Source: Sanderia malayensis
Lineage: Eukaryota; Cnidaria; Scyphozoa; Semaeostomeae; Pelagiidae
DNA: 64,000 nucleotides
Assembly (NCBI GenBank): GCA_013076295.1
Contig: RQOL01000718.1
Coordinates: forward strand, 1,798,001 to 1,862,000
Reading direction: 5' to 3'
This document shows, piece after piece, positions 1,162 to 62,535 of the stretch. The stretch's first letter is position 1. The number at the start of each line of letters is the position of its first letter. The notes below the pieces were generated by a model. The model ran no database searches. It was not told the DNA's origin and saw only the letters and a list, made by a program, of their open reading frames with translations. The position numbers and the translations under genes are program-made.

Positions 1162-8512
<7,351 letters not shown>

Positions 8513-17649: not shown

Positions 17650-17979
17650 CCGCCATTTTGTATTTATGAATTTTCGTCTCCTAGCAAAGTCGCTGGCCAC
17701 CTGTCAAGGCTCGCGGGCGCAGTATAGAATATTCACGCAAATTTAATGCAATTCAAATATAAATTGAAAAAAATATAAAACTCTATAAAACTTAAATCAA
17801 TTTTCGGAACTTATAAATAAACATAAACAGGATATAAAATCGAGAGCTATTTAATAGCATGTTGCAATATTTACATTAGCTTTGAAAAATTTAGTACATA
17901 TAAAAAATGGATTAAAAATGCTAAATTCATACAAAGCGGATTAGAAAATTATTCTGCCTAAACTTAAAAAGATTTAATT
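17650..17979. other. Short intergenic gap between ZC2HC1A and the giant gene
   Basis: 330 bp of A+T-rich DNA between the last codon of the giant gene and the start of ZC2HC1A, both on the minus strand. It holds the giant gene's 3' UTR and the ZC2HC1A promoter. Minus-strand ATTAAA-type signals occur at about 17847 and 17972. Confidence 0.5.
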
Positions 17980-30000: not shown

Positions 30001-33000
30001 TGATGGTTGCTCTTTACTCTTAGACTTCACGTTCTCATTGACTCCAAACACCAGCTTGTTCGATTTCTTTGCATTGGGTTTCGGAAGCGCAAATCTCACA
30101 TCTTTCATTGCTTCTGTAGGCAGCATAAAGTCGAACATTTCGGAGAGGTTTTCTTGATTTACGGTTGGAGTTACCTCGTCGAGATGCAAGGCCATGTTAG
30201 CACGTGTTATTTGTGAATCTGTTGGTATTTGACTGCCGTTCGATCCTGCAACTGTTGTGAGTTTATCGTTTGTCTCCAAAGAAAGTGCCATCACGTTTTT
30301 ATCTTGGTCTTTACTCTCCAACTCTGTACAATTAAGCAATACAACATAATTAGACGTCAACCAAAGAAATCCTTCATCACGACCGACTGACACTTATTTT
30401 CGTCCCGAAAAAAGCACAGCATCAACTCAGACAATCAGCTATCTTAAAGAGATCACAACAGTATCTTAAAGAGATCACAATATGTAGACACAAACAAACA
30501 ACAGATCCATCAACTTTCTCTCATGCGTTTCACCGATGAAAGAAAACACCATGGGCTTATCCACAAACATAGAATTGTAAACAAAGCATACTCATACCTT
30601 CTAATGCAGCGAGCGACTGATTACTTGGTGGCAACGTAGCATCGAATGGCATTTTCTTAGTCGTATGATGATGCACTGTTTTCTCCAAGTTTGGCATGTA
30701 ATGTTTCATTGTTGGATGGCGAGCATTACTGTTGAGCTCTGAAGCCCCTCCATGACGCCAACCTTGCAAATCACCCTCGGGTGACTTTGAAGCATCCTTC
30801 ATCTCTTCCTCCAATGCGTCTTGCTTGAAAGACAGGTCTGTTGACTTTGGTTTGCTATGCATGTGAGGAATACTTGCTCGTCTACCAGCCTGCACTTTAT
30901 TCTTCTTGTGGATCTTTTCTTCCATATCACCCAGTTTCAATGCTAATGCTGCTCCTCCACTATCGTTGTAATGCTTGTGAATGCTGTCATTTTTCGCTTT
31001 GGGCATGTTAGATAGTTCTGATCGCAAATGTTCGATTTCTTCTGTCAGGTTCTTCACTGTTTGTCTTAGCTTTGCATCGACAGTTGGTTTCGTCACCTGT
31101 TTTACTTTTATCGTCGGGATCGTGTCCTTTCGTACTGTTTTAGATGTTGGCACCAAATCTCCAATTGCCAATCCTTTAACAAAACATTCAATGTCAGCTT
31201 TGAAACTTACGAACAGTCATAGATTTATAATCAGATGTTAGAGTTGACTTTCGAAAAGTTGAACATTGTTTGGTGTTCTGTATCATTTGCTATCAGATCT
31301 AAAATGACACAGGTTTGAGCCGAACATCTTTGAAACCATAGCAGACATACAATGACTAAGAAATACGCAAAATAATAGGACAGCAAATCGTGAGTTTTCT
31401 TGAATAGATGAAATAGATTCAAACTTACCATGGTGTGACAAAGAAGCTTGTTTAGCGGGTATTGGTCTGGCAGTAGTGGGTAGACCTTTCATATGTTTCC
31501 TTACAGTCGCAGTTGGCTTGAGCGTTGGCAGTAACTTAGATGTTCTGTACAAAATTTTGTGAGTCGTTCGTGTATGTTTTGCTTTGGTCGGACTAAATGG
31601 TCGTTTAGTTGGACGACGTTGCATATTCTGTCCATACGTCAGTGGTCTAGCTGTTGTCAATGGTCTTACATCAAGGTTCTTAGCAACGTTTGGTTTGTTG
31701 GGAGGTATACCTGGATAAGTTTCGACATTTATGGATAAAACAATTGGCCTCTCCTTTGTTGTTTCCTGGTGAGGCTTCGCAGTTTGAGCTGTAGTCTTCT
31801 TTTGAGTAGTCTTGATCGCTTTAGGCTTCGTTGGATGCTTGTGTGTTGTGCTTGGCTTTGGTTTTGGCTTCTCAGTTGTCTTTGGCTTTGTAGTCTTCTT
31901 CTCAGTCGTCTTTGGCTTTGTAGTCTTCCTTTCAGTAGTCTTTGGTTTTGTAGTCTTCCTTTCAGTCGTCTTTGGCTTTGTAGTCTTCTTCTCAGTTGTC
32001 TTTGGCGTTGTAGTCTTCTTCTCAGTGGTCTTTGGCTTTGTTTTCTGCTGAAGAGTTTCCTGTGTCTTTGTTGGAGCTCTTGCCTTACCTGTTTCAGCCT
32101 CGCCTTCAAGACCAGCTGGGTTCGCAGCTCCGAGACTACCAAGATCACTATTCCCAGATTTACCATTCACTCCTCCTGCATTTTCATTGAATATATCTTC
32201 TTCAAGCTCTTTATGTAGTTCCCACGGAAATAGACGGTGCTTATACTTTGGTTTACGCTTTATAATCACATAGGGATACTGGTCAGGACTCTCGTCTTCA
32301 TGAACGGCTGTGATGACCTCCGTTTTTTCTGGATCATCCACGAATTCATCAGGCTCTTCGTCATCGTGCACGGGGGCCATGACCCCAATGTCATGTCTTC
32401 CTTTCGAAACGGGAATCACCCTTAGATTATGATCAACCAGATCGTAAGATTCTCGTTCTGGTGCTGACGTATCATGGGATAGCCGGGATGAATCACCAAA
32501 CAGACTGCTGACTTCACGGTCGAAATTCAATTCATCGTAATCGTCATTTGAGATGACAACCACAGGTTTACGCTTTAGATTTTTATGCCCTCTATATGAA
32601 GTATCACCGAGAATATGATCAGGCGAATGGATGAGAACATACGGCTCTCTGTTTGATTGGCTGTGTTGATGCATCAGCTTTGTCACGCGTGATTTGCGTG
32701 GAATAATGAAATCATAATTATCATTGCTTTCTTGTCCATCATCAGGAACGTCTACATTCGATTCAGCTTCGTTTTCATGCGGATGAAACTTGTGCTCGTT
32801 TCCCTCGAGTCCCCTTTCCGTGTGACCATGTTTTATATGCCTCGCATCAGTGTCTAAATACTCTTTTCTGTGCTGATGAACACGTGGTTCATCATAATCC
32901 TCATCCTCAACATCGTCATGAATTGGCTTGTCATCACCATTATGATTATCATCATTATGATTATTATCATCGTCATAATTCAATTCACTTTCATGGTGAG

Positions 33001-36000
33001 TAGGCTTCATTCTGCGCGCATGATGTCTATGGTAACCATGGTCATCATCATAATCATGATCGTCATCATAATGATGTTTGTGATAAAATAAATCTTCTGT
33101 ATCTTCGTTATCGATGCGTCTATGATGAGGTATTTCAGTTGGATGCTCCTCCATAGTGTCTTGATCAACATAATCATTGCCATATTCATACTTGCGCCTG
33201 CCGTGCAACACCTGAAGTCTGTGAGATTTTCTTTGCTTCTTCCTTCGACGTCTCCGTTGTTCAAATTCAGCATTATCATCGTGAATAGGATGTGATGCCT
33301 CCATACCACGGCTTAACGTACCCTCTCTTCCATGAAGCATTTCTGCCTTGTTTTCAAAGCCATTATGCTGTTGTGTGTCATATTCCTCGTCATCATACCG
33401 AGACTTGGCATGCTTTCTTGGTGTTGGATATATATTGACGTCTCCTAACTCACCTATTGCGCTTTTCTCAGTACCATACAACAAATTGATTGGCTGAGAT
33501 TCGTCATTCCTCCAATCATAATCTTTGCTATTCTTTGCAGATTCTTTACGTCTGTAACTGTTTGGGTGCTTTAGCCTTTGACGTAAGCCATCCTCGTGTC
33601 TTTCTGCAGCTTTCATTCTCATCAAAAACTGCTTATGTCTTGAGATAACTCCAAGATCGTCTACTTCGCCTTGATTCGATTGACTGTCAGACTCTTTTTC
33701 GCTATGCGGCAGCTTGGCAGTATCGTCCAACTCTTTATGACCCTCGACAAATTCAATATTCTCGGCAGCACCCAGCGATCCAAAATCACTCTTCATTTTC
33801 CTATCATCTCTATTTCCATTATCTGCATCTTTCACAGAAGACTTTCTCTCACCACTACGAATACCATCCTCCTCCGCTGCCACCAGCTCAGGTGCAGGCT
33901 GCTCTTCGTCGTTATTTTCCAATGTCTCAACATGTCCCAACGATAAATCCCGATCACTTAAATCATCTGAAATCACGTCTAAGCCTTTAGTTGGTTCGAT
34001 GTACGATTTTCCAGCACGTGATTCAGTGACTGCATCACCATGATCACTGCCATCTTGGTTATCATGAATGAATATATTGTTATTCATCTCGATTCGAGAT
34101 CCATCAGTGATCACTGATTCCTGCTTTTGATGTCTTTTGATTCCTTCTCTTCTTAATTCCGTCAGTCCGCTTGTGGGATGAGATACTTCCAGCCTTCCTT
34201 CTTGTCTATCAGCTGCAACTCGGCCTCTAACAGAACTTGACTGATCATCTTCAGTCTGATCATGGTTTTCTAACACTTTACTACTTGCAACAAGATCTTT
34301 CAGAATTGCATCACCTTGTAAATTATCATCGTGAATAGCAGTTGAATAAGTCGTGTGCTGTTTAGTTGTTGGCTGTGGTATTGTTGTCTTCTTCTCCAAG
34401 AAAACATTCATATCCTTCTCCTTTTTATCACCTCCACTTTTAACGCCACCAACAGGCCTAATCACAGCAACTTTTGGTGAGAACGAAGTCTCTTTCAACG
34501 GATCAATATCGCAGTCTTCAGCACGGTGACATGCTACACTGTAGCAGTATTTCTTCAGCAAGAACGCAACATCACATCTTGCATTCTTACAGCACAACTC
34601 CAAGCACTCCTCTTCGCTTTTCACTGACCCATGCTTAGTAATCTCACCAGCATTCAGGCCTCCTTTCATTATGCCAGTTTCAAACTTCGTCTTCATGCAA
34701 GAAGAGTAGTTATAGGCTTGAACCTCGAATTTTCCTTCCACAGTTTTATCAGCATCATCATTGTCTCCACCGGCATGATAAACGTAGGCAACCAGAGTCT
34801 TGTGCTTTGTTGATAGCATTGTTCTCGTTGCACAACTGTTCGTACTAACGCAAGAAACCAAATAGCAATCGTCATCCAAGATAAACGCAGCATCGCATGA
34901 CTTTGTTGACCTGCAGCAATACTCTATGCATTGATCAATGCTGTTTATATTTACTAGTCGCTGTAATATTGTGATCCTTTTGATATTGACAAACGTTACG
35001 CTTGCTTGGATATCCCCATGCTCACATTTTGCAGCATGCTTTCCTGCATCAGTAATGTATGTACTGGAAGATTGTTTGTGCGAGACATATGAAAATGCCT
35101 TCTCATCGGCATGTTTGTCTTCCTTGGACTTCTCTTTTGAAAGACGAGGCAAAGCACTTTTTCCAAACTCTTCAAAATTGTTAATCAATTTAGTTTTTCC
35201 TTCTTCCTTACGCGCCTTGCTCCATTCATGCAACATCAAATCATATTTTCCTTCTTCATTCTGGTGATCTTCTTCATTCTGGTGATCTTCTTTACGTTCA
35301 ATTGTAGAAGCCTTCCTCAACTCTATCGGATATTTAGACTTCTCTAAAGGCCCCATTCTACCGTCCTCCATTTCAGAATTGCTCCGGTCTTCATTTTCAT
35401 TTTCATCATCAGTTCCATCATCTTCATTCCTGTCATCTTCTCTGAAATCATCTTCTTTCGTATACGCTTTCCGCAAATTATCTTTCCTATCATCTTCATT
35501 CGCATTGTCCTCCCTTGCGTCAAATTCATTATCTTCCTTCAACTCCTTTCCCCCTCCTTCTCTCCTCTCGCTGTCATCTTCCGACTCTTCATTACGATTC
35601 TTCGTCTCTTCATCACCTTGCTGCAGCCTTATTTCATCTCCCAAGTCACCTTGAGCATCTTTTGATTCTACATTTTCAGCCTCGCTTTCAAACGAATCAT
35701 CAACAGGTAAATCAGATTCTTCTTTATTACTCTGCTCTTCAGCCTTAGTGAAATCGTCAAAACCAGCTTCGTTATCATCATTGTCCTCTGATTTTGCACG
35801 AGAATCAACTGGCCTCTTAACACCAAAGTCTCCATAATTCGACCCAGGTTGTGACGTAGAGAAACTTTTGCTTGCTGCGGTTATTGGACTTTCATTCAAA
35901 TTATACTCGCTATCCATTGGCTCAGAGCTCATTCCCTTGGCAACACGCTCCTCCGTGTCTGGACTTTCGACCGTTATACCATTGGTTGGCTGGACTGTTG

Positions 36001-39000
36001 TTTCTCTGGCAATAGCTTCATCATAAACATTCGATTTTCGAATATTCTCACCAATATCTGGTCGGTATTCTTGTGGACTTTCTGTAAGCTTCGAGCCTTC
36101 CCCTTGCTGTGTGAACTTTGGACCAGAATCGTCCATAACTTCTTTAACTGTCGGATGAACCTTGTTAGTCAAATTGTACACTTGCAGCGAAATATCCTCT
36201 TCATTTCTGGCTGGCAAATCATGGATGGCATCGGCAATATCAGCAGCATTTGTAATGGCATCGAATTCGGCTTCAAAATTATTCACACTTTCACCATTTG
36301 ATTTCAAATTACCAACCATTTTAGATATGGCAGGCACTGTTGGCTTATTGGCACCGAGGGTAGTTGGCATTGGCATTTTACCGCTTTTCCTTATAACATG
36401 CATCTCAATATCACTAGATCCTCCACTTCCAAGGTCTTTATTACGATCACCATAGACCTCATTATGCCCTGAGAACGAAGTTGTCAATTGTGAAGAACTC
36501 GGCACTGATATATTGCTCTCGCTTATCTGAGTATCATTTGAAAAGTTCATTGACTTCGTTGCATCATCGTTGAACTGCATAGAACTCGTTGGCTTCTCCT
36601 TGGGGCTAGATCCATCCTCTCCTAAGTCAAAACTGGTCTTACTCTCATTGGATTTCATCCCCCCATCCAATGCTGCATCATTATCTTTTGCAGTCTCGTT
36701 TCCATTAATCCCGCTTTCATTTCTTCCAATTCCATCTTCCACATTAGACATTGACTGCGTCACATTCTCTGCCTTGCTGTTTACCAACAGTTTGCTCGCA
36801 TCTTTCGATGTTTGCATCTGTCTCCCCCCGTCAGCTGCTTGTTTTCTATAAACAAACACGATTTTCGGAGCTGCTTCGCCGGGCTGCACGTCAACCAGCT
36901 CGCACGACTCCATTTTCGGACGACATGCTACCGAGTAGCAATTGTCCAATAGCATAAATGCTACGTCGCAGGTGGGGTTGGTACAGCACAGCTGACTGCA
37001 TTCATGCTCAGGAACCTTGCCCCTGTTCGTGAAATAGCCCGACCCCAGGCCGTTTCGTAGCGTAACATTGTAAGAGATCGGGCTATATAAACACAGAGGT
37101 GGCAGGCTCCCAATATCCAGATTGTCTGCAGAGGATGTCGAGTTTGGGCTGGAACTGTGTTCTTCTGTGTCGTCATACAGCCGATGATGATAATGATGAT
37201 GATCAGAGCTTTGAAGCTCGTCGTGATTCAAGTTTTTACTGTGATTATTAATTGAGTGAACAACTGCCAACTCCTCGTGTTGTTGCTGTTGTTGTTGTTG
37301 TTGTTGCGTAGGTCGAGAATCGTCTGCATTGATGCTGTTACTACCAATGATGCCTTGGCTACTGCTACTTTTGCTGTCAGATGGTACTATTATGGTGCCA
37401 GAAGTAGGGCTGTTAATTTCTCGCAATGACGCAGGCAATGCCTTGCTGGTCTCGGAAAGTTGTTGGTGTTGACTCATAGGAAATGCAGTTGTTGCTGAGT
37501 GAGAGATATATCGAGAGAATTCATCAACTTTTGACGGTATACTCGTGTGTAGTTGGTGGGTGTTGGCTTGGGTTGTCGTTGCAGATAAAGATTTTCTTGG
37601 TGATCCAACATTTGAAGAGGTCACTTGCACTGGTGTGGCCAAAGAAGTTCTAATTGATGATGTTGTTTCGTTTAAAGTCGCTCTTGGTTCTGATGTAGGA
37701 GAGAAAGTCTCTCTTGATGTTCCAATATTAGAAGGAGTATTTTGCATTGATGTGGCCAAAGAGGGTTTCATTGGTGATGCAGATTGATTTGGATTTGATG
37801 AAGCAGGAATTGTCACTCCTGATGATCCAACATCGGAAGAAGTCACTTGCAGTGGTGTGGCAAAAGAGGTTTTAACTGATGATGCAGTTTCGTTTAAAGA
37901 CGCTCTTGGTTCTGATGGAGGAGAGGAAATCTCTCTTGATGTTCCAATATTAGAAGGAGTATTTTGCATTGATGTGGCCAAAGAGGGTTTCATTGGTGAT
38001 GCAGATTGATTTGGATTTGATGAAGCAGGAATTGTCACTCCTGATGATCCAACATCGGAAGAAGTCACTTGCAGTGGTGTGGCAAAAGAGGTTTTAACTG
38101 ATGATGCAGTTTCGTTTAAAGACGCTCTTGGTTCTGATGGAGGAGAGGAAATCTCTCTTGATGTTTCCACATTAGAAGAGGTAACTTGCATTGGTGTGGC
38201 CATAGAGGTCTTTATTGGTGATGCAGATTGGTTTGGATTTGATGAAGCAGGAATTGCCACTCTTGATGATCCAAAATCGGAAGAAGTCACTTGCAGTGGT
38301 GTGGCAAAAGAAGTTTTAGCTAACGGTGTTGTTTCGTTTAAAGACGCTCTTGGTTCTGATGTAGGAGAGAAAGTCTCTCTTGGTGTTCCAATATTAGAAG
38401 GAGTATTTTGCATTGACGTGGCCAAAGAGGGTTTCATAGGTGATGCAGAGTGGATTGGATTTGGTGAAGCAGGAATTGTCACTCTTGATGATCCAACATT
38501 GGAAGAAGTCACTTGCAGTGGTGTGGCAAAAGAGGTTTTAACTGATGATGCAGTTTCGTTTAAAGTCGCTCTTGGTTCTGATGTAGGAGAGGAAATCTCT
38601 CTTGATGCTTCCACGTTAGAAGAAGTAACTTGCATTGGTGTGACCAAAGAGGTTTTAATTGATGATGCAGATTGGTTTGAAAACGCTGTTGGATTTGATG
38701 AAACAGGTAAGGTCACTCTTGATGATTCAACATTGGAAGAAGTATTTTGCATTGGTGTGGCCAAAGAGGTTTTCATTGATGATGTTGTTTCGCTTGAAAA
38801 AGCAGTTGGGTTTGATGATGAAGCGGGAAAGGTCACTCTTGATGATTGAACATTGGAAGAGGTCACTTGCACTGGTGTGGCCAAAGAAGTTTTAGCTGAT
38901 GATGCTGTTTCATTTAAAGTCGCTCTTTGTTCTGATGTAGGAGAGAAAGTCTCTTTTGATGTTTCCACATTAGAAGAAGTAACTTGCATTGGTGTGGCCA

Positions 39001-51000: not shown

Positions 51001-54000
51001 CGAATATTGTCTTGGCAATGTCTTTACCAGCCATTCGAGACCTGCTGTGTGCAATTACAGTTTTAAGCTCAGGCAGAACATCTTTAAGCTGCAGATTGAC
51101 ATTTGCTAAAAGCCTTGATAAGTTGATTATAACATCTTTGGCGCTTTTGCTCGATAACTTTGTAACTGCTGAATGAAGAGTGGGCCTATTAACTGACTTT
51201 GTTGTCATATTCTTTGTTGCGATTGAAACAGATGATATTGTCGGATGTTTTCTGGATGATTCTTTGCCTTTCACAAGCGGCATACCAAATACAGGGTTTT
51301 CTATCGTTGAATTAATACTTGCTTCGTGGAACGACTGTTTCACGCCTTGCTTTGATAGCTTCCTAAGCTTGTTATGCAGATGTTTTACCTTGCTAAAAGT
51401 TTCCGATTCATTTCTCGATGGCTCAAATTTTGGCTTCTTCTCCTCAAAGTCTTTTTTCTCAGTTGGACGTCTTTTTTGAAGTTCATCTAGTAGCGAATGA
51501 AACAAACCTAATAGGTTTTCCCTTTCGCTTTTGAATTGATGTCCCTTTTCATGTGCATGGAGCGCGGACTTCGGTCGGATAAACATGGTTGGTACATGCG
51601 TCAAACTGGACTCCGGTGGTGCTTTGAATACCTTTGACAAAGCCATTGACTGTGGTTCTCGGGTCTGCATGAGTACATGTGGATGCTTGGTCCGCAAATT
51701 AGCGTTGACAAGTTCACAACCGGCTTTACTGAAACACTGAATCAAATAGCAAATGTCCCTGTAAACCAAAGCGAAATCGCAACTCGGATCCTTACAGCAT
51801 TTGTGATGACAAATGACCGGATCTCTAACGAATGGAACCGGAGAGAAGTTACCAGCTGATGTACCATCCCGCAATACCTTGTCCGTGTAGATCCCAAGCA
51901 ATTTACAACTTTCATCCTGTTTGTATTTTTCGAAATTATCTGCTGAAGCAACTCGATTATCATATCTTGCGTGGAAACTCGTCTTTGGCATTGTTACATT
52001 TGCAGCAACCTGATCTTGATGTCCTTTTCTTGAATAACCCGTCATTGACGCAACAGTTTTGCTTGGACTACCTGCTTGCTGCACTGTAGACACTTCTCTC
52101 GTCGAGGCTATACTTGGCTGAACAATAGCCTCATTTCCATTACTTATAACCTCATTCTCCACGGTCAGATTCTTGGCTGCTTCCGAAGAAGAATCATTTG
52201 CCGCAATTGCAGTATTTATGGATGTCCTATTAGCTGTAGATCTATGACTCCCATGTCTTCCATACATAAGAAGCTTGGGATCGTAGTAAACTTTTATCGT
52301 AAGGTTAGGCTTGTTTTTCTGTTTGGTTGCTTGCATAAACTGTTCTGTCTTGTTCCATTTAGTCTGTTCCGGCTGCTTGGTATCCTTGGCGGCCTGAGCT
52401 ACAAGTGTTGCCGAATTGCCAGTGTTTGACTGCATTGGTTGGTGGTGACTTGCACTTTCAGTGTTATTGAAAACGCGCTTTGATCCGCTTTCTGTTCTTG
52501 CCTTAGAGTGTTTGAATCCTGTTTCGAAGCCATGCTGTTGTACCAGGCTAAGTTGGGGTAATCCTTCGTGAGACTGATTGAAACTGGTTTGATTGACACG
52601 CTGTACAGGGCTGATAACCTCAGTCTCTGCTAGCTTAGCTGAAACTTGAGTGGTTGACTTGGCTGTAGCTTGAGTTGTAGCTTGAGTTGTAGATTCAGCT
52701 GTAGATTCAGCAGTTGTGGACTGAGTTGTAGCTTGAGTCGTAGATTGAGTTGTAGCTTGAGTTGTAGGCTGAGCTGTAGCTTGAGTTGTAGATTGAGTTG
52801 TAGCTTGAGTTGTAGGTTGAGTGGTAGCTTGAGTTGTAGACTGAGTTGTAGCTTGAGTTGTAGCCTGAGTTGTAGACTGAGTTGAAGGTTGAGTTGTAGA
52901 TTGAGTTGTCGCTTGAGCCGTAGACTGAGTTGTAGATTGAGTTGTCGACTGAGTTGTAGCTTGAGTTGTAGAATGGGGTGGGATCTGAGTTGTTCTAGAA
53001 TCAGCCACATCCAGGATAATTGGTTGAGTTATAGTTTGATAGGGGCTGGCACTGGGGCTAAAGATCTCAGCTTCTCCACTTTCATGAGTTATTACCTCAG
53101 GTGGCGCCTGAAGTGTAGACTGAGTTGCAGCTTGAGTTGCAAAATGAATTGGAGCTGGAGTTTTAGATTGAATTGCAGCTTGAGTTGTAACTTGCGTTGT
53201 AGAATGGGCCGGAGCTTGAGTTGCAGACTGAACTGAACCATGAGTTGGTACGACAGATGGCGCTTGAGTTGTAGCTTGAGTTATAGATTGAGTTGTAGCT
53301 TGAGTGGTAGGCTGGGTTGTAGCTTGAATGGTAGGCTGGGTTGTAGCTTGAGTTGTGGGCTGGGTTGTAGCTTGAGTTGTAGGCTGGGTTGTAGCTTGAG
53401 TTGTAGGCTGGGTTGTAGCTTGAATGGTAGGCTGAGTTGTAGCTAGAGTGGTAGGCTGGGTTGTAGCTTGAGTTGTGGGCTGGGTTGTAACTTGAGTTGT
53501 AGGCTGGGTTGTAGCTTGAGTTGTAGATTGAGTTGTAGATTGAGTTGTAGGCTGGGTTGTAGGCTGGGTTGTAGCTTGAGTTGTAGTTTGAGTTGTAGGT
53601 TGGGTTGTAGCTTGCGTTGTAGACTGAGTTGTAGATTGAGTTGTAGATTGAGTTGTAGGCTGGGTTGTAGGCTGGGTTGTAGCTTGAGTTGTAGCTGGAG
53701 CTGTAGGCTGGGTTGTAGCTTGAGTTGTAGGCTGGGTTGTAGCTTGAGTTGTAGCTTGAGTTGTAGATTGAGTTGTAGGTTGGGTTGTAGCTTGAGTTGT
53801 AGGTTGGGTTGTAGGTTGAGTTGTAGATTGAGTTGTAGGTTGGGTTGTAGCTTGAGTTTTAGGTTGGGCTGTAGCTTGAGTTGTAGCTTGAGTTGTAGAT
53901 TGAGTTGTAGGTTGGGTTGTAGCTTGAGTTGTAGGTTGGGTTGTAGGTTGAGTTGTAGATTGAGTTGTAGACTGAACTGGAGCTTGAGTTGTAGATCGAG

Positions 54001-57000
54001 TTGTAAACTGAACTGGATCTTGAGTTGTAGAATGGGGTGGGATCTGAGTTGTTCTAGAATCAGCTATATCCAGGATAATTGGTTGCGTTATAGTTTGATA
54101 GGAGCTGGCGCTAGGGCTAAAGATCTCAGCTTCTCCACTTTCATCACTTGTTACCTTAGGTGGCGCCTGAAGTGTAGACTGAGTTGCAGCTTGAGTTGCC
54201 GAATGAATTGCAGTTGGAGTTGTAGATTGAGTTGCAGCTTGAATGGTAGGTTGGGTTGTAGCTTGAGTTGTAGACTGGGTTGTAGGCTGGGTTGTAGCTT
54301 GATTTGTAGGCTGGGTTGTGGGCTGGGTTGTAGCTTGATTTGTAGGCTGGGTTGTGGGCTGGGTTGTAGCTTGAGTTGTAGATTGAGTGGTAGACTGAGT
54401 TGTAGCTTGAGTTGTAGATTGGGTTGGGGCCTGAGTTGTTCTAGAATCAGCTATATCCAAAATAATTGGCTGAGTTATAGTTTGATAGGGGCTGGCGCTA
54501 GGGCTAATGTTTCCAAACCGACTTTCATTGACAACATCATCAGCCTCCTCCATGTACCTGCTGCCACTATTATCATCAAGTGAAGAGCCTCTGACATTAT
54601 TACTCGCAAATTGTCCTTGTGACGTCATCACTGGGCCGTGTAAATTAACCGTGTTTTCATTGTCGATATATTTTGTCCTATTTACTATTGATTGCCTTGA
54701 AACAGTATCATTTTGTACAATACTTGATTCCTCGCTACTCCCACCATTGAACCTTGTCTTGTGGATCAAATCCTTTCCTTTCTCGGTTTTCTTATGTACT
54801 CCATGACTTCTCGTCCTTTCCAAGGGTGCCAGATACGACACAAATGCTGCCACATTGCTCTTGTGTGTTTGAACCCTATTCTTGCTTGCAGGTTTTGCCA
54901 CATGGTCCTCCCTGTCAATCAAAACATCAAACTGACCTCTGCTTCCACCACGTGGATTTGATGCATGTTTAGTTTTGAACAAAACAAACTTAGGGTGTGT
55001 TACATTAATAGCTGCCTCGCTTCCTGAGCTTTGATTTCCGTTACTCTCTTTGAGAATGGGCATTCTGTCATCTATGCTTAAAGATCTATGTGGACCAGGA
55101 ATAACAGAGTTGTTTAGCACTCTCACAATTCCAGCGTTTGATGGTAAAGCATCTTGGAGATTCGTTGACTTTCTAATTGGTAAAATTGAATAAAAAGCAG
55201 GTTTTGCACTCTGCAAGTTCATTCTTTTCATCCCTCTTTCAATTGTAGCTTTCTGTTTTGCTCCAGGTCGAGGCATTGGCTTAATTGTCGTGATATCCAC
55301 AGGGAGAGTTGCAGGCTCGAAGACATGCGGGGTGTCAGATTTTGCCACAGCTTCAGTACTATCTACGTGAGCTCTACCATGAATTGTAGGTTTGAGAGTA
55401 GCTTCGGTTGTAGACTGAGTTGCAGGAAGGCCTTCGTGTTGAGTTAGATTCTGAGTTGTAGGTCTGAGAGTAGATCCAGTTGTAGATTGAGTTGTATGAA
55501 GGCCTTCATGTTGAGTTTCGTCCTGAGTCGCAGCATGTGTTGCAGTCTGGATTGCAGTTTGACTTGTTGGTTTATGGATTGGGCCCAGTGTTGCTTGTTT
55601 CACTATCGTTTGAGCCTCTTGTTGAGGTAAAACTTTGGAAGGAGAACCAGTTGCAGCCACAGCTATAGACTGAGCTATAGTTTGTGGTGTTGCTTCTCCT
55701 GCAGATCGAGTTGTACCATTCATCGTAGCTGCTCTAGGCATACCTCGAGTGGTTGGTTTTGATGTAGCTTGGGCTGTTATCTGGACTGTCTTTTGAGTTC
55801 TTACGTGTCGTGCAGCTTGATCTATAACACGAGTTGTAGGCTTGGAGGTAGCGTTAATTGTAAAGTGGGTTGCTGCATGACTCGTAGGTGTTTCAGTTGT
55901 AGCCTTAATTACTGGCTTAGCTGCAGATTGGGCTCCAGATCGAGGCCTTGATATAGTTGTAGGCAAAGTTATAGGTTGAGTTACAGGTTGCGTTGTAGTT
56001 TGAATTGCGGGTTCAGTTGTGTCTTGGTTTGCAGATTTGGCTACAGGTTGGGATGAAAATTTAAGGGAAGATCCCCGATCTGTGGTTTGAGATGTTGGCT
56101 TTATGGCAGCATGAGCTGTGCTCTTCAACGCATTTTGATTTCCCGCTTGCATTGCAGTCTGAAATGCGGCATGTGTTGCTGGCCTGGATGAAGCTTCTGT
56201 TGGAGAGCGAGTTGTTGGCAAAGTCAGACGTTGAGTTGCAGATTGTGTTGTAGTATTCTGAGCTGTAGGTTCCATTTCAACTTTTTTTGCAGCTGGATGG
56301 ATGGCAGCATCATGTGAAGTTGCAATTGTAGCCTGGGGTTCACTCTGAGCTCTAGCACGAGTTGCTGCTTCAGTGGTATCATAAGTTGTAAGTGTGGCTG
56401 TTGTGGGCACAGGTGAGGCTTTCGTTTCAGCATTAGTTACACTTTGAATAATGGCTTTAGCTGTAGGCTTAAATGTTGCTTCAGTTGTAGGCTTAAGTGT
56501 TGCTTCAGTTGTAGGCTTAAGTGTTGCTTCAATTGTAGGCTTAAGTATTGCTTTAGTTGGGGGCTTGAGAATTTCTTTAGTTGTAGGTTTGAATGTCTCT
56601 TTATTTGTGGGTTTAGATGTAGCTTTGTCTAAAAATTTAGGTCCAGCTGGAATTGTAGCTCGACTTCCAGTTGCAGCGTATGTTGGTGGCTTAGCTATGA
56701 CAGAATACGATGCAGCTTGAGTTGCATTCTCAGTTATGGCATAACCAATTGACTTATATGTAGCTGGAACAGGAGATGCTGATGTACGTTGACTTGCAGA
56801 TAGAGGTGTGGCATGAGTTGCAGTCTGATTAGACCGAGTTGGAACTTGGGTTGCGGCCTGAGTAGACTGAGTTGGAACTTGGGTTGCAGCTTGATTAGAC
56901 GGCGTCGGAGCTTGAGTTGCAGCCTGATCAGACTGAGTCGGAGCTTGGGTTGCAGCCTGATTAGACTGAGTCGGAGCTTGAGTTGCAGTCTGATTAGATC

Positions 57001-60000
57001 GATTCGGAGCTTGAGTTGCAGCCTGGTTAGACTGAGTTGGAGCTTGAGTTGCAGCCTGATCAGACTGAGTAGGAGCTTGGGTTGGAGTCTGATTAGACTG
57101 AATCGGAGCTTGAGTTGCAGCCTGATCAGACTGAGTCGGAGCTTGGGTTGCAGTCTGATTAGACTGAATCGGAGCTTGAGTTGCAGCCTGATTAGACCGA
57201 GTTGGAGCTTGAGTTCCAGCCTGACTAGACTGAGTCGGAGCTTGGGTTGCAGCCTGATTAGACTGAGTTGGAGCTTGAGTTGCAGCCTGATTAGACCGAG
57301 TCAGAGCTTGAGTTGCAGCCTGTTTAGACTGAGTTGAAGCTTGAGTTGCAGCCTGTTTAGACCAAGTTGGAGCTTGAGTTGCAGCCTGTTTAGACTGAGT
57401 TGGAGCTTGAGTTGTAGCCTGATCAGACTGAGTCGGAGCTTGAGTTGCAGTCTGATTAGACGGAGTTGAAGCTTGAGTTGCAGCCTGGTTAGACCAAGTT
57501 GGAGCTTGAGTTGCAGCCTGATCAGACTGAGTCGGAGCTTGAGTTGCAGTCTGATTAGACGGAGTTGAAGCTTGAGTTGCAGCCTGGTTAGACCAAGTTG
57601 GAGCTTGAGTTGCAGCCTGTTTAGACCAAGTTGGAGCTTGAGTTGCAGTCTGATTAGATCGAGTTGCAGCTTGAGTTGCAGCCTGGTTAGACTGAGTTGG
57701 AGCTTGAGTTGCAGTCTGATTAGACGGAGTTGAAGCTTGAGTTGCAGCCTGATTAGACCGAGTTGGAGCTTGAGTTGTAGCCGGATTAGACTGACTTGGA
57801 GCTTGAGTTGCGGCCTGATTAGACCGAGTCGGAGCTTGAGTTGCAGCCTGATTAGACTGAGTTGGAGCTTGAGTTGGAGCCTGATTAGACTGAGTTGGAG
57901 CTTGAGTTGGAGCCTGATTATACTGAGTTGGAGCTTGAGTTGCAGCCTGACTAGACTGAGTAGGAGCTTGGGTTACAGTCTGATTAGACCGAGTTGGAGC
58001 TTGAATTGCAGTCTGATTAGACCGAGCTGGAGCTTGGGTTGTAGGCTGCGTCCCAGTTTGGGTCTCAGCTTGATTCGTAGCCTGAAATACACCAAGTTCG
58101 GATACAGCCAGAGTTATTGGTTGGGTTATACCTTGAGTAGAGGATCGAGTTGCCGTGTGAGTTGATGTATGACTTGTGGCTTGAATTGTTGCTGGATTTG
58201 TAAGCCTAGCTGTAGGCGTAGTTGAATTTGGAGTTGTGCGCTGAGTTGTACCTGAAGTTGAAGACCTGGTGACACTACCCGAATCCACTGAGCCATCCTT
58301 ATGTAATGTTGTATGCATTGAAGCGTCAAGGAAGTTAAGCTCCGTTTTGTCGCGAGAATGCACAATCTTGGACGCATGAGGTTTCTTGCGTGCTTTTGTT
58401 TCGTGATGAGAAACTGGAGCACGGTGAGCATGCCTCTCGTGGTTCTCCTGGTTATCGTGGTGAACTTGTTCTTTCTTTCCTTTGATGCCTGTTGTCTCGA
58501 CTTTTGACTTCAATGTCTTGACATGCGTCTGCGCAGACATAATTGGTTTGATCATGTGAAACTTTGGGACAGAGATGTCTAGACTACTTTGCGATACATT
58601 TCCAAGAGCTGGAGAAAATTTACTTTTATTCTTAACCGAAAGTCGTCGTCTCGGCAATAGATTCTCATAGCTATGAACAAAACTTCTTCGGTGACCATAA
58701 AATCGAGATAGCAATAAAGGATTTGGAGTTGTGGCATTGGATTGACCAGATTTCATTTTCCTCATCACGTGACCAGTTGGTTTTAGATTGGCATGTCCTT
58801 GACTCCGCAAAGGATTCTTTGTCATCTTGTAATGTTTCGAGCTCAGAAAACGGTCTTTCACTGCACCAAACGTTGGTACATTTGAAGGATTATCAGTAAT
58901 TGTGCTAAAAGGCATTGCTTGCATGGATGTATTTCTTGGCATTGTAATGCTATCCTTATCAGCTTTAGCATCATTCTTAATAAGCAACTTCTTCTCATGT
59001 TGTTGATGATGATGGATGGACACAGCTTTGTTCTTGGGCGACAATTCCGGCGATGTCGGTTCGTAGATTCGGCCTCTGTACACAAATACAACTTCTGTCC
59101 TCTTGCGATGATGACTCGTAACCAACTGGCAATGAAACTCTGATTTGCACGTGATTGAGAAGCATTCGTTTTGTATCAGCATTGCCAGATTGCACGAATG
59201 TGACTCGCAGCAGTACTTCACGCACCTATCCATGCCAACGACACTCGCGTGCAGCACGACTTGCCCCGAATGCAATCCAAACCTCGGTATAACGTTGACG
59301 TGACGATGACCGTGGCTGCACAGTGGAATCTTGTGATAGGAAGGCGCTGACGGAGCAGCCATGCTCAGTGCCCTGAGGAGGTGCTTTGTGTAGTCCTCTG
59401 CGTCGTGTAAACGTGATGATGGGTGATTAACAACAACTCTTTCACCACGATCAGAATGATTTCGCAGCTCGTCGCTTCTTTGCAAAGCAGCTTTGCCAAT
59501 TAAATACAATCTCTTTGACATTTTCACTCTGACGTCATCAGGATGAAGCTGGAAAAATGTCTTGAGGATTTTATCTTTCTTTCTGTCATTCCCCAACGTA
59601 CACTTACTTGAATTTCCCTGTAAACAATCAGCCATCCTCAATGTTGCTGCTCCCAAAGTATGAAGTCGACGTTGACCGTTCTCTGCTTCTATACTCGTCT
59701 TATTACCGGCGTGACTGACGAATTTTCGATGATGTTTGACAAGCAATTTGGCAGCTTCTTTTATCACGTTCGTATTATCTTGCATGTCTTGGTATGCGAG
59801 TGCAGTGGTATCGTTGGACGCATTGCTAGTGGCATTATTCAACAAAACATCTTGGACTATCTTCGCAGACAAATTCTTAAATCCACCATCTTTACTGCCG
59901 TCGTCACCAGTTCTATTTCTGTGCCTTGAAGGTATCCCATGATGCAATTTCTGGCGGGAAATTTCACTTCTTTCCATCAACATTTCGTGATCAATTTTCG

Positions 60001-62535
60001 TGTGTACTGGTTTGCGTTTCGATTCATTCGATTTCCTTTTCGTCGTCTTTCGCTGCTCCATTTTACGAGGGGGACCAATTTGATCTCTTGTTTTGCTCGG
60101 GGGCAGGGGCGTCGTGTCCGCATGCAGCAAAACATTGTAAGAGACCGCCCTATGCCCCGTCGAGGAACGTACCAGCACTGAGGCAGTTTTATTCCGACTA
60201 TTCAAATCTTGTGGTGTGTGTTGTTGTCTGTCGTGTGTCAGTTGTAATGTAGTCTGACGTACGTCTGCCGTATCTGTCAACAGTAAGTGTAGTCATAAGA
60301 AACTCACCTATTAGTCAAGGCCTACGAAGTTGCTCTACCATTTTACTTTTGCGAGCTTCGCATCCAAAGATCTTCTGAACAGCTAACAGCAATGAACGCA
60401 ATGAAAGAATTGCTATGCCTAAAATTGCAGTTTATTTACGGTTCGACGTATATTATATTATGTGCCTTATCTCATAACAAATAATAAGACTGACTTACAG
60501 TTATGCTTTGAATAGCCATGTTTATGAACTTTTGTTGAATGTGTTTTATTGTTTAGTTTCTTCGTACGATTAGCTTTGTGAAAATGTCTTGATTGACCTC
60601 CTGAGAAAAAGACAAAGTAAGTTACAACGAGTATTGTACTTTTTAAGCTGCATATAGTTGCCAATAAACAAATAATTAAAAAAAGGGAGAGATACAATAC
60701 CTTGAATATGCAGCGTTTTGTTGCCAATATCTTTGGCAGCAGAGATCGAGTCATCATCGCGATGCGATAAAGACGATGCATTGCGCATTCTTGACTTATT
60801 CGTATTGCTCGCTTCGATCTGCTTGACGAGTTCAATGTTGATCTCATCTCCCAAGTCACCGAATTCGCCAGACACGCCGTAATGTTCAACATCTATAGAC
60901 ACTGGGGCATCCTTATCATCACCACCATTGACCCCCGTCATTGCAGCATTGCTTGCATAATATCTATTGCTCGGTCTCACCGTCCCGGGGGTCATCATCA
61001 TGATATCTTCGTTGTTTTCAGAGCTCAGCACGTCATTGTAATCTCTGCTTCTCGTTGGAGTAAACGGAATGGTAATAGGATCAGTCCTTCTTGTTGCTAT
61101 GACGTCATTTGCACTCTCATCATCATCATAATCATCATCATCATAAATGTTCCTCTGTTGCTCTGGGTAACGAGTGTTATCCAACATTCTGTATCTATCA
61201 TCATCATAGTCATCATAATCATCGTATAACGGACCCTCTGTTGCGAACCTACCGCGAAACTGATCACTGACATCCGGGTACTTGTCATACCCAGAATCCC
61301 TCATTATGTCCTCGTGTGTGCTGTAGCCTGCAGCCTCGTTTTCAGCTTCTTCATCAAAGAGAGATTTCTCGGTTGGGTTGTCCTCACTCGGCAACAAGCC
61401 CGATTTCATCAGATCTTCTGTTAAAAGTTCACTTCTTTTCAAGTCATCATTATCTTGGCGACTTGAAGAATCATTATCTGCGAGGATGTCGTCTGGGAAC
61501 ACTTCATCAAGGTCTACAGTCTCGCTGGAATTCATCGCATGTTTCTGTGGTGCTTCGTCCTCGGCAATGCTAAGCTTATCCTCTCCTTTTGCAACATCCA
61601 CCATCACTTGCTTTGAAGAAGTATCGGACTTATGCGTTTCATTCTTCTTCTCTGTAGAAGTAAACACACAAGAATAAGCATATCACTCTGATACCGATTC
61701 GAACTGGTTCTGCATCACAAATAAAAAAGTATATCAGAAGTCAACAAAAGAGCAAGATGAAAGTTTCACTCATTGCCAAATACCTGTCTTTTCATCTGCA
61801 TGAAGTATGTCAGTACCATTATGTTCCCTAAGCTTTTTGGAGAGTGACAATTTCCCTTTATTTTGATTAGTACTAGTTGCCTTATGATCAAATGTGACTT
61901 TCTTGTGCATTTTCGGCTCTTTTGCAGCAGTTGTTTTTAGTGTCTTGTGCTGTTTTGATGGTGCAAACTCTTTGGTAATCTCCTCATTTTTCTTCGTATT
62001 TGTTGCTTCTCCCTCGTTGGTAAAATGTCCTAAGAGCGAAAACAAGGGGAAAATACCAGTAGAGAAAAAGTTAACTTACACTACGAAAGTCAGAATCATT
62101 TCCAGCAGGTATCAACATGCCTTATCTAATACCTTTAGACAACAAAACTAACTAACTAGTGCCCCCATAGCAGGGAGACGAGAGAAAGAAAGAACTACAA
62201 ACCTCGGTCATGTTGTAGCCTCGTCTTCGTTCTAGTGATATATGCAATTGTAATGGATTCCTTCCGGCTACTGGCATCCGTCCACAGACAGGCTTCTTCA
62301 TCTTTGCATTCAACTGAGTAACAATGATCATTTACCACGTAAGCTACGTCACAGGTTGAAGACTTGCAACACTCGGCTTTGCACTGGTCGAAGTCTTTTG
62401 CGTGTTTTCTGCGCACGAATTTGCCTGATCGCGTGCCCAAACGCAAGTCTGCACGAAGAAGTGCAGGAGTTACAATGCAGTCTCTTTCGTTGCCTGAACG
62501 TTTCGCACGTTCAATGCGCGAATGGGAAACTTTAC
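17980..62535 (-). CDS. Giant MANSC-repeat, mucin/proteoglycan-like type I membrane protein
   Basis: Twenty-six chained exons: 62203-62535, 61784-62029, 60701-61651, 60499-60600, 31429-60273, 30598-31173, 29535-30323, 28236-28549, 27760-28086, 26832-27365, 26143-26493, 25807-26007, 24615-25583, 24064-24519, 22430-23386, 21614-22219, 21200-21328, 20954-21076, 20419-20547, 20247-20303, 19678-19947, 19329-19451, 19104-19226, 18753-18875, 18372-18568, 17980-18021. They give about 12,600 residues. Order: MANSC; acidic linkers; the 28.8-kb exon with 11 MANSC domains among Ser/Thr/Pro/Gln repeats; coiled-coil linker; laminin-G-like; two MANSC; a second laminin-G-like with MANSC; three more MANSC; His-rich and Ser-Gly tract; EGF x3; Ig; EGF x3; membrane helix; short basic tail. 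All internal junctions except the last are phase 1, so modules are exchangeable. The first exon starts in phase 1 after an unseen signal-peptide exon. The composition points to an extracellular, heavily O-glycosylated membrane-anchored molecule. MANSC domains of this type are known from KIAA0319, but no PKD domain is seen here. One exon (28236-28549) carries a frameshift. I know no described protein with this architecture. Confidence 0.85.
18161..18221. repeat. Palindrome in the last intron of the giant gene
   Basis: GTTCAAACCATAGTCATAAG faces CTTATGACTATGTTCGAAC around a short loop. It lies in the last intron (18022-18371) and may be the core of another short inverted-repeat element. Confidence 0.65.
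18372..21328 (-). other. Giant gene: EGF x3, Ig, EGF x3 and membrane helix
   Basis: EGF exons 21200-21328, 20954-21076, 20419-20547; a 19-residue linker 20247-20303; one I-set Ig domain 19678-19947 ([20 protein letters not shown] ... [15 protein letters not shown]); EGF exons 19329-19451, 19104-19226, 18753-18875. Four EGFs start with the calcium-binding motif DxDEC or DVNEC. Exon 18372-18568 holds the membrane helix ([20 protein letters not shown]) followed by [11 protein letters not shown], which sets a type I orientation with a cytoplasmic basic stop-transfer. Confidence 0.92.
20081..20225. mobile_element. Short inverted-repeat element (TATAAGAACCTGC family)
   Basis: Arms CCATATATAAGAACCTGC and GCAGGTTCTTATATGGG face each other about 105 bp apart. 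Its ends resemble the element at 27518-27652. It lies in the intron before the Ig exon. The plus-strand ORF over it is chance. Confidence 0.7.
21614..22219 (-). other. Giant gene: His-rich and Ser-Gly (glycosaminoglycan-type) exon
   Basis: Encodes a Thr/Lys stalk, a His/Lys-rich segment, then [20 protein letters not shown] (about 21880-21940) and a second His tract ([19 protein letters not shown]). Clustered Ser-Gly pairs with adjacent Glu are the classic xylosylation pattern for chondroitin/heparan sulphate chains. It sits directly before the EGF block, as in a membrane proteoglycan. Confidence 0.85.
22430..23386 (-). other. Giant gene: double MANSC exon (domains 17, 18)
   Basis: A Thr/Pro/Lys stalk, then MANSC 17 ([20 protein letters not shown] ... 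CYAMQC), a Ser/Asn/Ala linker with NGSV and SNAT sequons, and MANSC 18 ([20 protein letters not shown] ... CYSVNC). It is the only small exon with two MANSC domains, so a tandem exon or domain duplication without an intron. Confidence 0.88.
23558..24028. mobile_element. MITE-like element with TACCGTAAATCCTCGAATAA ends
   Basis: Begins TACCGTAAATCCTCGAATAA followed by GCCCCC, and ends with the reverse complement (GGGGGCTTATTCGAGGATTT then ACGGTA), about 26-bp terminal inverted repeats. Internal copies of CTCGAATAAGCCCCC are tandemly repeated near both ends. There is no ORF with transposase features. It lies in the intron between exons 24064-24519 and 22430-23386. Confidence 0.85.
24064..24519 (-). 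other. Giant gene: MANSC 16 exon
   Basis: Thr/Lys/Pro stalk ([20 protein letters not shown]) followed by MANSC 16 ([20 protein letters not shown] ... CFLVSC). All eight Cys are present. Phase 1-1, 456 bases. Confidence 0.88.
24615..26007 (-). other. Second laminin-G-like domain plus MANSC 15
   Basis: Exon 25807-26007 opens with a Thr/Pro stalk and [20 protein letters not shown]; exon 24615-25583 continues the fold ([69 protein letters not shown]), intact in frame. After a Lys-rich linker comes MANSC 15 ([20 protein letters not shown] ... CYLVEC). The domain order repeats the LamG-then-MANSC order of the preceding block, so the block was probably duplicated. Confidence 0.88.
25710..25806. repeat. 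12-bp minisatellite in the intron of the second LamG domain
   Basis: About eight copies of a 12-base unit (AATGCCAAAAAG and variants AATACTAAAAAG, AATCCCAAAAAG) abut the donor of exon 25807-26007. It is noncoding on the gene's strand after the donor. Confidence 0.8.
26143..27365 (-). other. Giant gene: two MANSC exons (domains 13, 14)
   Basis: Exon 26832-27365 has a poly-Asn tract (about nine N at 27166-27192), then MANSC 13 ([14 protein letters not shown] ... CYTVIC). Exon 26143-26493 has a Thr-rich stalk ([15 protein letters not shown]), then MANSC 14 ([15 protein letters not shown] ... CFTVHC). Both keep eight Cys and are phase 1-1, so each exon is one stalk-plus-domain module. Confidence 0.88.
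27518..27652. mobile_element. Short inverted-repeat element (CCCGCATATAAGAACCTG family)
   Basis: Starts TACAGTAAACACCCGCATAT and ends TATATGCGGGTTTTTCTGTA about 135 bp later, arms of about 22 bp with mismatches. It lies in the intron between exons 27760-28086 and 26832-27365. It shares TATAAGAACCTG with 20081-20225. Confidence 0.7.
27760..28549 (-). other. First laminin-G-like (LamG/concanavalin) domain, exon pair with 2-bp frameshift
   Basis: Exon 28236-28549 begins [16 protein letters not shown] and carries [20 protein letters not shown] then AMWVKLR; exon 27760-28086 continues [40 protein letters not shown] and [13 protein letters not shown]. This is the Laminin_G_3 fold, paralogous to the copy at 24615-26007. 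Exon 28236-28549 is 314 bases, two more than a multiple of three. The frame is lost in AGAGAGAC (about 28317-28325): before it reads WVKLRE, after it only the +2 frame gives [20 protein letters not shown]. An extra GA in a dinucleotide run explains it. Confidence 0.85.
28168..28192. repeat. (AGTAAC)n microsatellite
   Basis: Four tandem copies of a six-base unit in the short intron within the first LamG domain. Confidence 0.75.
29535..31173 (-). other. Giant gene: two linker exons after the giant exon
   Basis: Exon 30598-31173 includes [20 protein letters not shown], a short coiled-coil heptad stretch, and an N-glycosylation sequon. Exon 29535-30323 is Ser/Lys-rich and contains [17 protein letters not shown] and a basic [20 protein letters not shown]. 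Neither has Cys-rich domains. Both are phase 1-1. Confidence 0.75.
31845..32050 (-). repeat. 30-bp coding array ([10 protein letters not shown])n
   Basis: About seven ten-residue units of [10 protein letters not shown] / [10 protein letters not shown], ending the giant exon with a Thr/Lys/Pro stalk. The basic charge contrasts with the acidic linkers upstream. Similar short TTTKKPxTT stalks recur in later exons (24064-24519, 22430-23386, 21614-22219). Confidence 0.9.
32860..33300 (-). other. His/Asp-rich linker of the giant protein
   Basis: Reads [20 protein letters not shown] and later [17 protein letters not shown], next to a basic cluster [13 protein letters not shown] at about 33225-33265. 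Alternating His and Asp suggests divalent metal binding, by composition only. The plus-strand ORF rich in Ile/Met here is an antisense shadow. Confidence 0.8.
34455..35027 (-). other. MANSC domains 11 and 12 of the giant protein
   Basis: Domain 12 ([20 protein letters not shown] ... CYSVAC) is a typical copy with the GGLNAG turn. Domain 11 has all eight Cys but has lost the GG.xAG motif ([14 protein letters not shown] instead), so its first loop is altered. They are only about 70 bases apart, the closest pair in the exon after 50222-50811. Confidence 0.8.
35270..35770 (-). other. Acidic Asp/Glu-rich linker of the giant protein
   Basis: Minus-strand frame reads long runs such as [20 protein letters not shown] and [20 protein letters not shown]. 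It has no Cys or predicted fold and is likely extended. It may bind calcium; this is inference from composition only. Confidence 0.75.
37115..40936 (-). repeat. 1,911-bp tandem direct duplication inside the giant exon
   Basis: 37115-39025 and 39026-40936 are direct copies at a fixed offset of 1,911 bases (637 codons, frame kept). I found one base difference: 37904 c and 39815 t, which changes Ala to Thr in PR(A/T)SLNET. Each copy contains the poly-Gln tract and the QVTSSNV / NETASS repeats. The junction is at CAGTTTCC/AGATTG with 3-5 bases of microhomology. The near identity means a very recent event or an assembly artefact. Confidence 0.95.
37281..37310 (-). repeat. Poly-glutamine tract (copy 1)
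   Basis: About nine consecutive Gln codons ([17 protein letters not shown] context) followed by a His-rich [14 protein letters not shown] segment. It is repeated in the second duplicate at about 39192-39221. Confidence 0.85.
37545..41110 (-). repeat. 222-bp coding repeats ([10 protein letters not shown] / [10 protein letters not shown] type)
   Basis: Within the duplicated segment and just beyond it, a 74-residue unit recurs. It contains [36 protein letters not shown] and [19 protein letters not shown]. The same bases recur at 37861 and 38083, a 222-base offset. Each unit appears to be two related half-units of about 110 bases (QVTSSN.. and QNTPSN..). It is Ser/Thr/Pro-rich with an N-glycosylation sequon (NET) in each unit. 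Confidence 0.88.
46545..46915 (-). repeat. 45-bp coding array ([15 protein letters not shown])n, 8 copies
   Basis: Eight 15-residue units of [15 protein letters not shown] type, with variants [16 protein letters not shown] and TVFHAENL. Unlike the other arrays, it keeps a fixed charged and hydrophobic pattern (VFHAE), so it may fold or bind rather than only carry glycans. It lies just before MANSC at 46218-46470. Confidence 0.92.
48780..49260 (-). repeat. 27-bp coding array (ESSVSTHPQ)n, 18 copies
   Basis: Eighteen nine-residue units ([36 protein letters not shown] and others) lie in tandem. The period is 27 bases and has no internal Cys. It lies between the acidic region at 49400-49650 and the next Ser/Thr linker. 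Confidence 0.93.
52640..54520 (-). repeat. 12-bp coding array ([12 protein letters not shown])n in three blocks
   Basis: Three blocks of tetrapeptide repeats ([12 protein letters not shown]) are separated by a conserved spacer of the form [19 protein letters not shown], at about 54436-54510, 54046-54120 and 52990-53060. The spacer is nearly identical each time, so the array grew by duplicating block plus spacer. One Thr-Thr pair per four residues gives a very dense potential O-glycan track. Plus-strand ORFs rich in SLSCRLSC are the antisense shadow. Confidence 0.93.
56440..56640 (-). repeat. 30-bp coding array ([12 protein letters not shown])
   Basis: About six tandem units of KPTTEATL / KPTIEATL / KPPTKAIL / KPTTKEIL type, read on the minus strand. 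It is adjacent to the 33-bp array and to an irregular Thr/Ala/Gln region (about 55400-56430) that looks like decayed copies of the same kind. Confidence 0.8.
56815..58085 (-). repeat. 33-bp coding array ([11 protein letters not shown])n, about 38 copies
   Basis: Head-to-tail 33-base units encode the 11-residue repeat [11 protein letters not shown], with variants such as [22 protein letters not shown] and [11 protein letters not shown]. Nearly every unit has three or four Thr/Ser residues and no Cys, as in mucin O-glycosylation domains. Copy number is estimated as length divided by period. The period is a multiple of three. Confidence 0.93.
58250..60060 (-). other. Giant exon start: MANSC 2 and basic linker
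   Basis: After a basic N-terminal stretch ([19 protein letters not shown]) comes a helical linker and MANSC 2 (59072-59320, with [18 protein letters not shown]). A His/Lys-rich linker follows ([19 protein letters not shown] at about 58345-58415) and leads into the Thr/Gln array. The first Gly-Gly of the domain signature is FGLHSGQ here, so this copy is somewhat diverged. Confidence 0.75.
60499..62535 (-). other. Giant gene: first four visible exons (MANSC 1, acidic linkers)
   Basis: Exon 62203-62535 starts in phase 1 and carries [11 protein letters not shown], where RAKR is a furin-type site, then the first MANSC domain ([20 protein letters not shown]). Exon 61784-62029 is Lys/Thr-rich. Exon 60701-61651 is very acidic with [12 protein letters not shown] and [13 protein letters not shown] tracts. 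Exon 60499-60600 is a 34-residue Lys/His-rich linker. All lengths are multiples of three and all junctions phase 1. No ATG with a signal peptide is visible in frame, so the true 5' exon lies between 62536 and 64000 or beyond the window. Confidence 0.82.

Follow-up and report, generated by a model that had tools for sequence, protein, structure and literature searches.

A candidate single coding exon of 28.8 kb with eleven KIAA0319_N/MANEC domains in the scyphozoan Sanderia malayensis

Introduction

The question raised by this locus of Sanderia malayensis is whether a stretch of 28.8 kb that is free of stop codons in one frame constitutes a single coding exon. Exon definition, co-transcriptional splicing and the repair of repeats are all put under strain by giant coding exons. 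In an early-branching animal whose introns are otherwise short (mean 381 bp according to the genome paper, PMC7305137), a giant exon studded with folded domains would be a natural test of the need for special splicing or export, and of the repeated origin of mucin-like surface coats. There is also a warning for annotation, as such an exon will probably be broken up by gene finders and in short-read transcriptomes. The window considered here is the whole stretch analysed, 64,000 nucleotides of contig RQOL01000718.1 (C675 in the genome searched, which comprises 184,004,477 bp in 918 contigs). Coordinates are those of the window unless otherwise stated, and (-) marks the reverse strand.

Results and Discussion

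The open frame and its edges

The element under study is the following:

31429..60273 (-): giant coding exon, 28,845 nt (9,615 x 3), phase 1-1, no stops

The sequence-only reading had described an open frame of about 9,615 codons with phase-1 splice sites at both ends, and this was borne out. The exon is contained in a stop-to-stop frame of 9,669 codons (60292..31286, (-)) without any stop. An acceptor (...TTGACAG/AT) precedes position 60273, and a donor (CATG/GTAAGT) follows position 31429. Of the two sites, the donor scores high (10.6 bits) and the acceptor is weak but usable (0.6 bits), with alternatives at 60264 (0.1 bits) and 59787 (-0.2 bits), so the 5′ edge could be shifted inward by 9 nt or, with lower likelihood, by 486 nt.

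A frame open by chance was rejected: log10 of the probability of meeting no stop was about -240 when computed from the local base composition, and about -169 when computed from the trinucleotide frequency of the giant exon itself. The other five frames of the exon contain 396, 751, 480, 516 and 628 stops, and the same frame on each side of the open stretch contains 37 and 32 stops per 666 codons.

Gene model

Twenty-three exons were modelled by hand around the giant exon from GT/AG sites; 21 have lengths that are multiples of 3 and 22 are stop-free in the phase-1 frame. The exceptions are an exon of the laminin G (LamG) region with a frameshift, described below, and the last exon listed (length only). 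The giant exon and its neighbours, called here the A part, form a model of nine exons and 10,739 aa without stops. It comprises the giant exon, two exons downstream of it and six upstream, of which four lie in the window and the other two in L002:

66225-66162 (-): signal-peptide exon, 5′ of the window, in L002 (L002 coordinates are these minus 64000)
65313-65026 (-): 5′ exon, in L002 (same conversion)
62203..62535 (-): upstream exon, 333 nt, one KIAA0319_N domain
61784..62029 (-): upstream exon, 246 nt, phase 1-1
60701..61651 (-): upstream exon, 951 nt, phase 1-1, acidic low-complexity
60499..60600 (-): upstream exon, 102 nt, phase 1-1
60274..60498 (-): upstream intron, 225 nt, phase 1, weak acceptor ACTACACTTACTGTTGACAG
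31198..31428 (-): downstream intron, 231 nt, phase 1, strong donor GTAAGT, weak modelled acceptor (-3.0 bits)
30598..31197 (-): next exon downstream, 600 nt, phase 1-1
29535..30323 (-): exon, 789 nt, strong phase-1 donor GTGAGT (8.9 bits)

A search of 3.3 kb for signal-peptide exons gave the exon at 66225-66162 as its sole candidate. Next to the KIAA0319_N gene on its upstream side, at L002:5118-5756 (+), there is an endonuclease/exonuclease/phosphatase gene, TDP2-like. As KIAA0319 and TDP2 are neighbours in human, this proximity may be old microsynteny.

Search for introns within the exon

Splice-site and content models were trained on the introns of the locus, a small training set, and the inside of the giant exon was scanned for single introns of 70-1,200 nt with lengths divisible by 3. 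The 22 modelled introns, one of which (985 nt) presupposes the splice from the A part to the downstream B part discussed below, scored 22.9-215 bits, with site scores taken leave-one-out and the content part not. Inside the giant exon, 1,578 in-frame candidates were scored, and the highest total was 13.0 bits. The content score in 150-nt windows of the exon had a mean of -0.09 bits/base (maximum 0.04, 4% above 0), versus 0.11-0.35 bits/base for the modelled introns (leave-one-out). Reading through the modelled introns leads to a stop in 19 of 20 cases. The median of the modelled sites is reached inside the giant exon by 19 of 1,223 GTs and 5 of 2,093 AGs.

These data bear on the possibility that parts of the exon are removed in many transcripts, be it as in-frame exitrons, by alternative splicing or by skipping of the whole phase 1-1 exon, which would leave the frame unchanged. 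Some in-frame pairs do have fair sites, such as 45690-45547 (donor 6.8 bits, acceptor 13.2 bits), but the interior of this pair scores as coding (-9.5), and the best candidate stays well below the range of the modelled introns in a scan that addressed single introns. Frequent removal of this kind is considered clearly unlikely.

Repeat arrays and domains

Four arrays of short repeats were delimited in the giant exon:

56814..58048 (-): 33-bp array, 11-codon unit, about 37 copies
52631..54439 (-): 12/24/36-bp array, TTQA/TTQP units, purifying selection in frame
48763..49258 (-): 27-bp array, PQESSVSTH, about 18 copies
46548..46903 (-): 45-bp array, about 7 copies, pN/pS 0.27

The composition is mucin-like, with Pro, Thr and Ser adding up to at least 40% in 26 of 96 windows. 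In the 12/24-bp and 45-bp arrays, pN/pS was 0.27-0.50 in frame versus 1.2-2.7 in the other computable frames. Purifying selection was not clear in the 33-bp array (0.77; other frame 0.65), in the 27-bp array (0.60; other frame 0.40) or in the long repeats at 39.9-41.1 kb (0.79-1.94). For four arrays, their own substitution pattern predicts about 12.2 stops and none was observed (nominal P 5e-6, the units not being independent).

Spaced by these Ser/Thr/Pro/Gln-rich repeats there are eleven eight-cysteine domains. Identities are given to the domains of two protein-database relatives, P0006 and P0007:

59072..59320 (-): domain 1, KIAA0319_N/MANEC
51653..51910 (-): domain 2, KIAA0319_N/MANEC
50558..50815 (-): domain 3, 76.7% identity to domain 1 of P0007
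50222..50482 (-): domain 4, 68.6% identity to domain 2 of P0007; structure modelled
47318..47575 (-): domain 5, KIAA0319_N/MANEC
46217..46468 (-): domain 6, 46.8% identity to domain 2 of P0006
44570..44827 (-): domain 7, KIAA0319_N/MANEC
41183..41440 (-): domain 8, KIAA0319_N/MANEC
36839..37093 (-): domain 9, KIAA0319_N/MANEC
34772..35029 (-): domain 10, KIAA0319_N/MANEC
34457..34699 (-): domain 11, KIAA0319_N/MANEC

All eleven matched KIAA0319_N (PF23597) at 29.4-47.0 bits, above the curated cut-off of 27 bits. With MANEC (PF07502, curated cut-off 25.5 bits), three multi-domain pieces scored 39.4, 31.9 and 36.9 bits and two single-domain pieces 22.4 and 19.2 bits. Exactly eight cysteines were found in every one of the eleven domains, in invariant columns, so the domains are intact, as the sequence-only reading had stated. 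By the structural model of domain 4, the KIAA0319_N/MANEC domain is predicted to have the PAN/apple fold; a search of the PDB with a single sequence gave no match, and a profile search did give matches.

Close matches among the protein-database relatives concern three of the eleven domains (3, 4 and 6). P0007, the one match among 7,403 candidates, contains two adjacent domains that correspond to domains 3 and 4, and the matches of P0007 and P0006 stand each well above the next one. Domain 3 of P0007 and domain 1 of P0006 are without a clear counterpart in the giant exon; given these two unmatched domains and the fact that the P0007 frame ends soon after, the relatives may lack the same exon structure. 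No relative of the giant protein at comparable or whole length was found at E ≤ 0.01 among 84 candidates, and a scan of viral contigs with P0007 gave no match. In a tree of 53 domains, two of the 50 inner branches were well supported. The distribution of the giant-exon domains on it needed at least 8 changes (mean of shuffled data 10.2; 17 of 500 shuffles as low), and as the tree is poorly supported no claim is made on the origin of the eleven domains.

It could be argued that the frame has stayed open accidentally in repetitive sequence, or that it belongs to a decaying gene, since some arrays are open in other frames as well and display little selection. This is extremely improbable in view of the in-frame constraint on two arrays, the stops missing against expectation, the complete set of cysteines and the conservation across species, and a decayed gene was rejected on these grounds.

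All the sequence tests run support the proposal of a single very long coding exon, with some repeat arrays lacking a clear selection signal. The stretch is best interpreted as a single exon, internal and symmetric (phase 1-1), within a putative giant extracellular glycoprotein gene, with a probability of roughly three in four.

A near-identical tandem duplication and the true length

A tandem duplication missed by the sequence-only reading occurs within the exon:

37116..39028 (-): duplication copy A, near-identical tandem, unit 1,911 bp
39027..40939 (-): duplication copy B, 1 difference in 1,913 bp with respect to copy A

Because of this near identity, the true length of the exon could be 26.9 kb, if the second copy were an artefact of assembly or of a chimeric read. 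The copies are far closer to each other than the other repeats of that region, and the assembly was obtained from self-corrected PacBio reads and Hi-C, according to the accessible part of its description (PMC7305137), a conceivable source of such an artefact. On the other hand, the junction unites sequences with just 2 bp in common (a 2-bp overlap, with similarity past the edges at chance level, 12/50 and 15/50 bases), and the duplicated unit is a multiple of 3, so that the frame is preserved. Misjoins by assemblers usually happen where long homologous repeats are present, so a recent and genuine tandem duplication would account for the junction no worse than an error of assembly. An exon that is real but of about 26.9 kb is possible, on the unlikely side.

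Comparison with other giant exons and protein families

The sequence-only reading had placed the 28.8-kb exon, if confirmed, with the longest coding exons of any animal, on the yardsticks of human titin (about 17 kb) and MUC16 (about 22 kb). Its place in the top class is fair, while a record is not established, and the yardsticks are outdated. In the accessible part of a 2026 preprint (PMC13345508), human MUC12 proteins are predicted to reach up to 23,080 aa, the MUC12 repeat exon is called the largest coding exon of some humans, and a MUC4 allele of 27,843 bp is given. The coding sequence of Argiope trifasciata AgSp1 has 42,270 bp in two similar-sized exons, as stated in the part available of its report (PMC6553539). 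A record claim was rejected on account of the longer MUC12 coding exons predicted in some humans in the accessible preprint text (PMC13345508). Among the papers listed by a literature search, none showed the Sanderia exon.

Like this gene, MUC16, MUC4 and MUC12 have one very large in-frame exon of Ser/Thr/Pro-rich tandem repeats, and the EGF-type and transmembrane exons downstream would be shared too if the A and B parts were joined. In contrast with those membrane mucins, eleven PAN/apple domains are interspersed here, there are several unrelated repeat types rather than one VNTR, and a SEA domain was not found in the pieces scanned. The exon stands out by the eleven folded domains interspersed in it and by its non-bilaterian host. 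AgSp1 is similar in that its repetitive coding sequence extends over tens of kilobases with few exons, but it belongs to a different protein family.

KIAA0319 and KIAA0319-like proteins have KIAA0319_N (PF23597) in common with this gene by Pfam. In KIAA0319 proteins, PKD domains follow the N-terminal domain. Here there are many domain copies, mucin-like spacers and LamG/EGF/Ig regions, and no PKD match (E up to 0.1 or 0.01) appeared in the scanned pieces, which cover the giant exon and leave out the exons 61784-62029, 60499-60600, 30598-31197, 29535-30323 and 28234-28549. On this basis, a KIAA0319 orthologue was rejected. The proteins with related modules, namely HAI-1 (MANEC), plasminogen, factor XI and plasma kallikrein, offer another protein context, as neither protease nor Kunitz domains were found here in the pieces scanned.

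The B part and its possible junction to the A part

Downstream of the A part, the following were modelled:

28800..28857 (-): B-part signal-peptide exon, phase-1 donor GTAAGT, 11.2 bits
18022..28549 (-): B part, with Laminin_G_3, six KIAA0319_N, EGF-like, I-set Ig and a transmembrane helix
below 18022 (-): short terminal exon of the B part

Two relatives of the B part, P0002 and P0003 (the latter with a EukProt name in the Clytia hemisphaerica style), contain LamG and/or KIAA0319_N, EGF and Ig in similar order, with 40% and 36% identity, respectively, to the B stretch queried. They have 1,229 and 1,322 aa, are apparently partial, and lack the giant-exon part. The C-terminal tail of the B part resembles that of P0002. 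A separate observation in a B-part intron (23560-24000, (-)) is the presence of tandem and inverted copies of an 18-bp-type sequence, AATAAGCCCCC.

From the modelled splice sites, the A exons probably continue into the LamG/PAN/EGF/Ig/transmembrane exons, giving a predicted product of about 12.7k aa; EGF and a transmembrane segment would belong to the protein of the giant exon only through this candidate splice. A complication for this splice is that the B part has its own signal-peptide exon. There could then be two genes: one (signal peptide, 13 PAN domains, giant exon) secreted and ending at about 29.5 kb, the other starting at 28857-28800, where the 11.2-bit donor follows a signal-peptide-like sequence of a strength not found in three control stretches. 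Moreover, the A frame, if unspliced, soon reaches a stop past 29535. Against two genes stand the strong phase-1 donor at 29535, the absence of any of eight variants of the poly(A) signal between 29535 and the start of the B part, and the phase 1 of the LamG exon, which could thus accept the A transcript. The first LamG exon (28234-28549, (-)) can be read through two open frames in succession, and the expected frame contains one stop. Whether due to an indel in sequencing or to a real lesion, this apparent frameshift would break the A-to-B junction as read. Two separate genes are a serious possibility, short of an even chance. The most probable outcome, in our view, is a long tethered form accompanied by a short one made from an internal promoter.

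Proposed product and origin

The giant exon would be translated whole, with the 5′ signal peptide directing the chain to the secretory pathway. By analogy with membrane mucins, the repeats may form an extended O-glycosylated brush, in which the PAN/apple modules would act as spaced binding or cross-linking sites in glycocalyx, mucus or a mesoglea-facing layer. Splicing from 29535 to the B part (28549 onward) would anchor the product, of about 12.7k aa, in the membrane with type I topology, and a second promoter with the signal-peptide exon 28857-28800 would yield the short, B-only form. The exon could have grown as repeats of 12-45 bp and 117-222 bp, lying between old PAN domains, expanded without breaking the frame, introns being neither retained nor acquired between the domains.

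A further-reaching reading, somewhat less likely than not, is that eleven ancient PAN/apple domains were gathered in a single 28.8-kb cnidarian exon, possibly the longest coding exon so far outside bilaterians, and that the product is a membrane-tethered string of binding modules on mucin-like strands, of about 12.7k aa and of a mucin-like design independent of vertebrate mucins.

Most relatives within the genome have one KIAA0319_N domain per open frame. Further clusters of KIAA0319_N genes occur at C675:2.53-2.56 Mb, C655:3.65-3.67 Mb and C815:2.50-2.52 Mb, their members having mostly one domain per open frame; one frame has three (L032:5103-6452). Searches for other genes showed no COX1 in the assembly and gave no match to let-7 or innexin, which were equally missed in the controls. 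The best match to silicatein, a sponge marker, is cathepsin-like with CGSCW, and a sponge origin was rejected as there is no positive evidence for it. Concerning other genes of the window, the gene adjoining the B part (14796-17660, (-)) is ZC2HC1-like (zinc finger C2HC), as judged by eye, and an intron-free frame of 405 codons at 4194-5408 (+) corresponds to a lipase of the lysosomal/gastric type (PF04083, PF00561).
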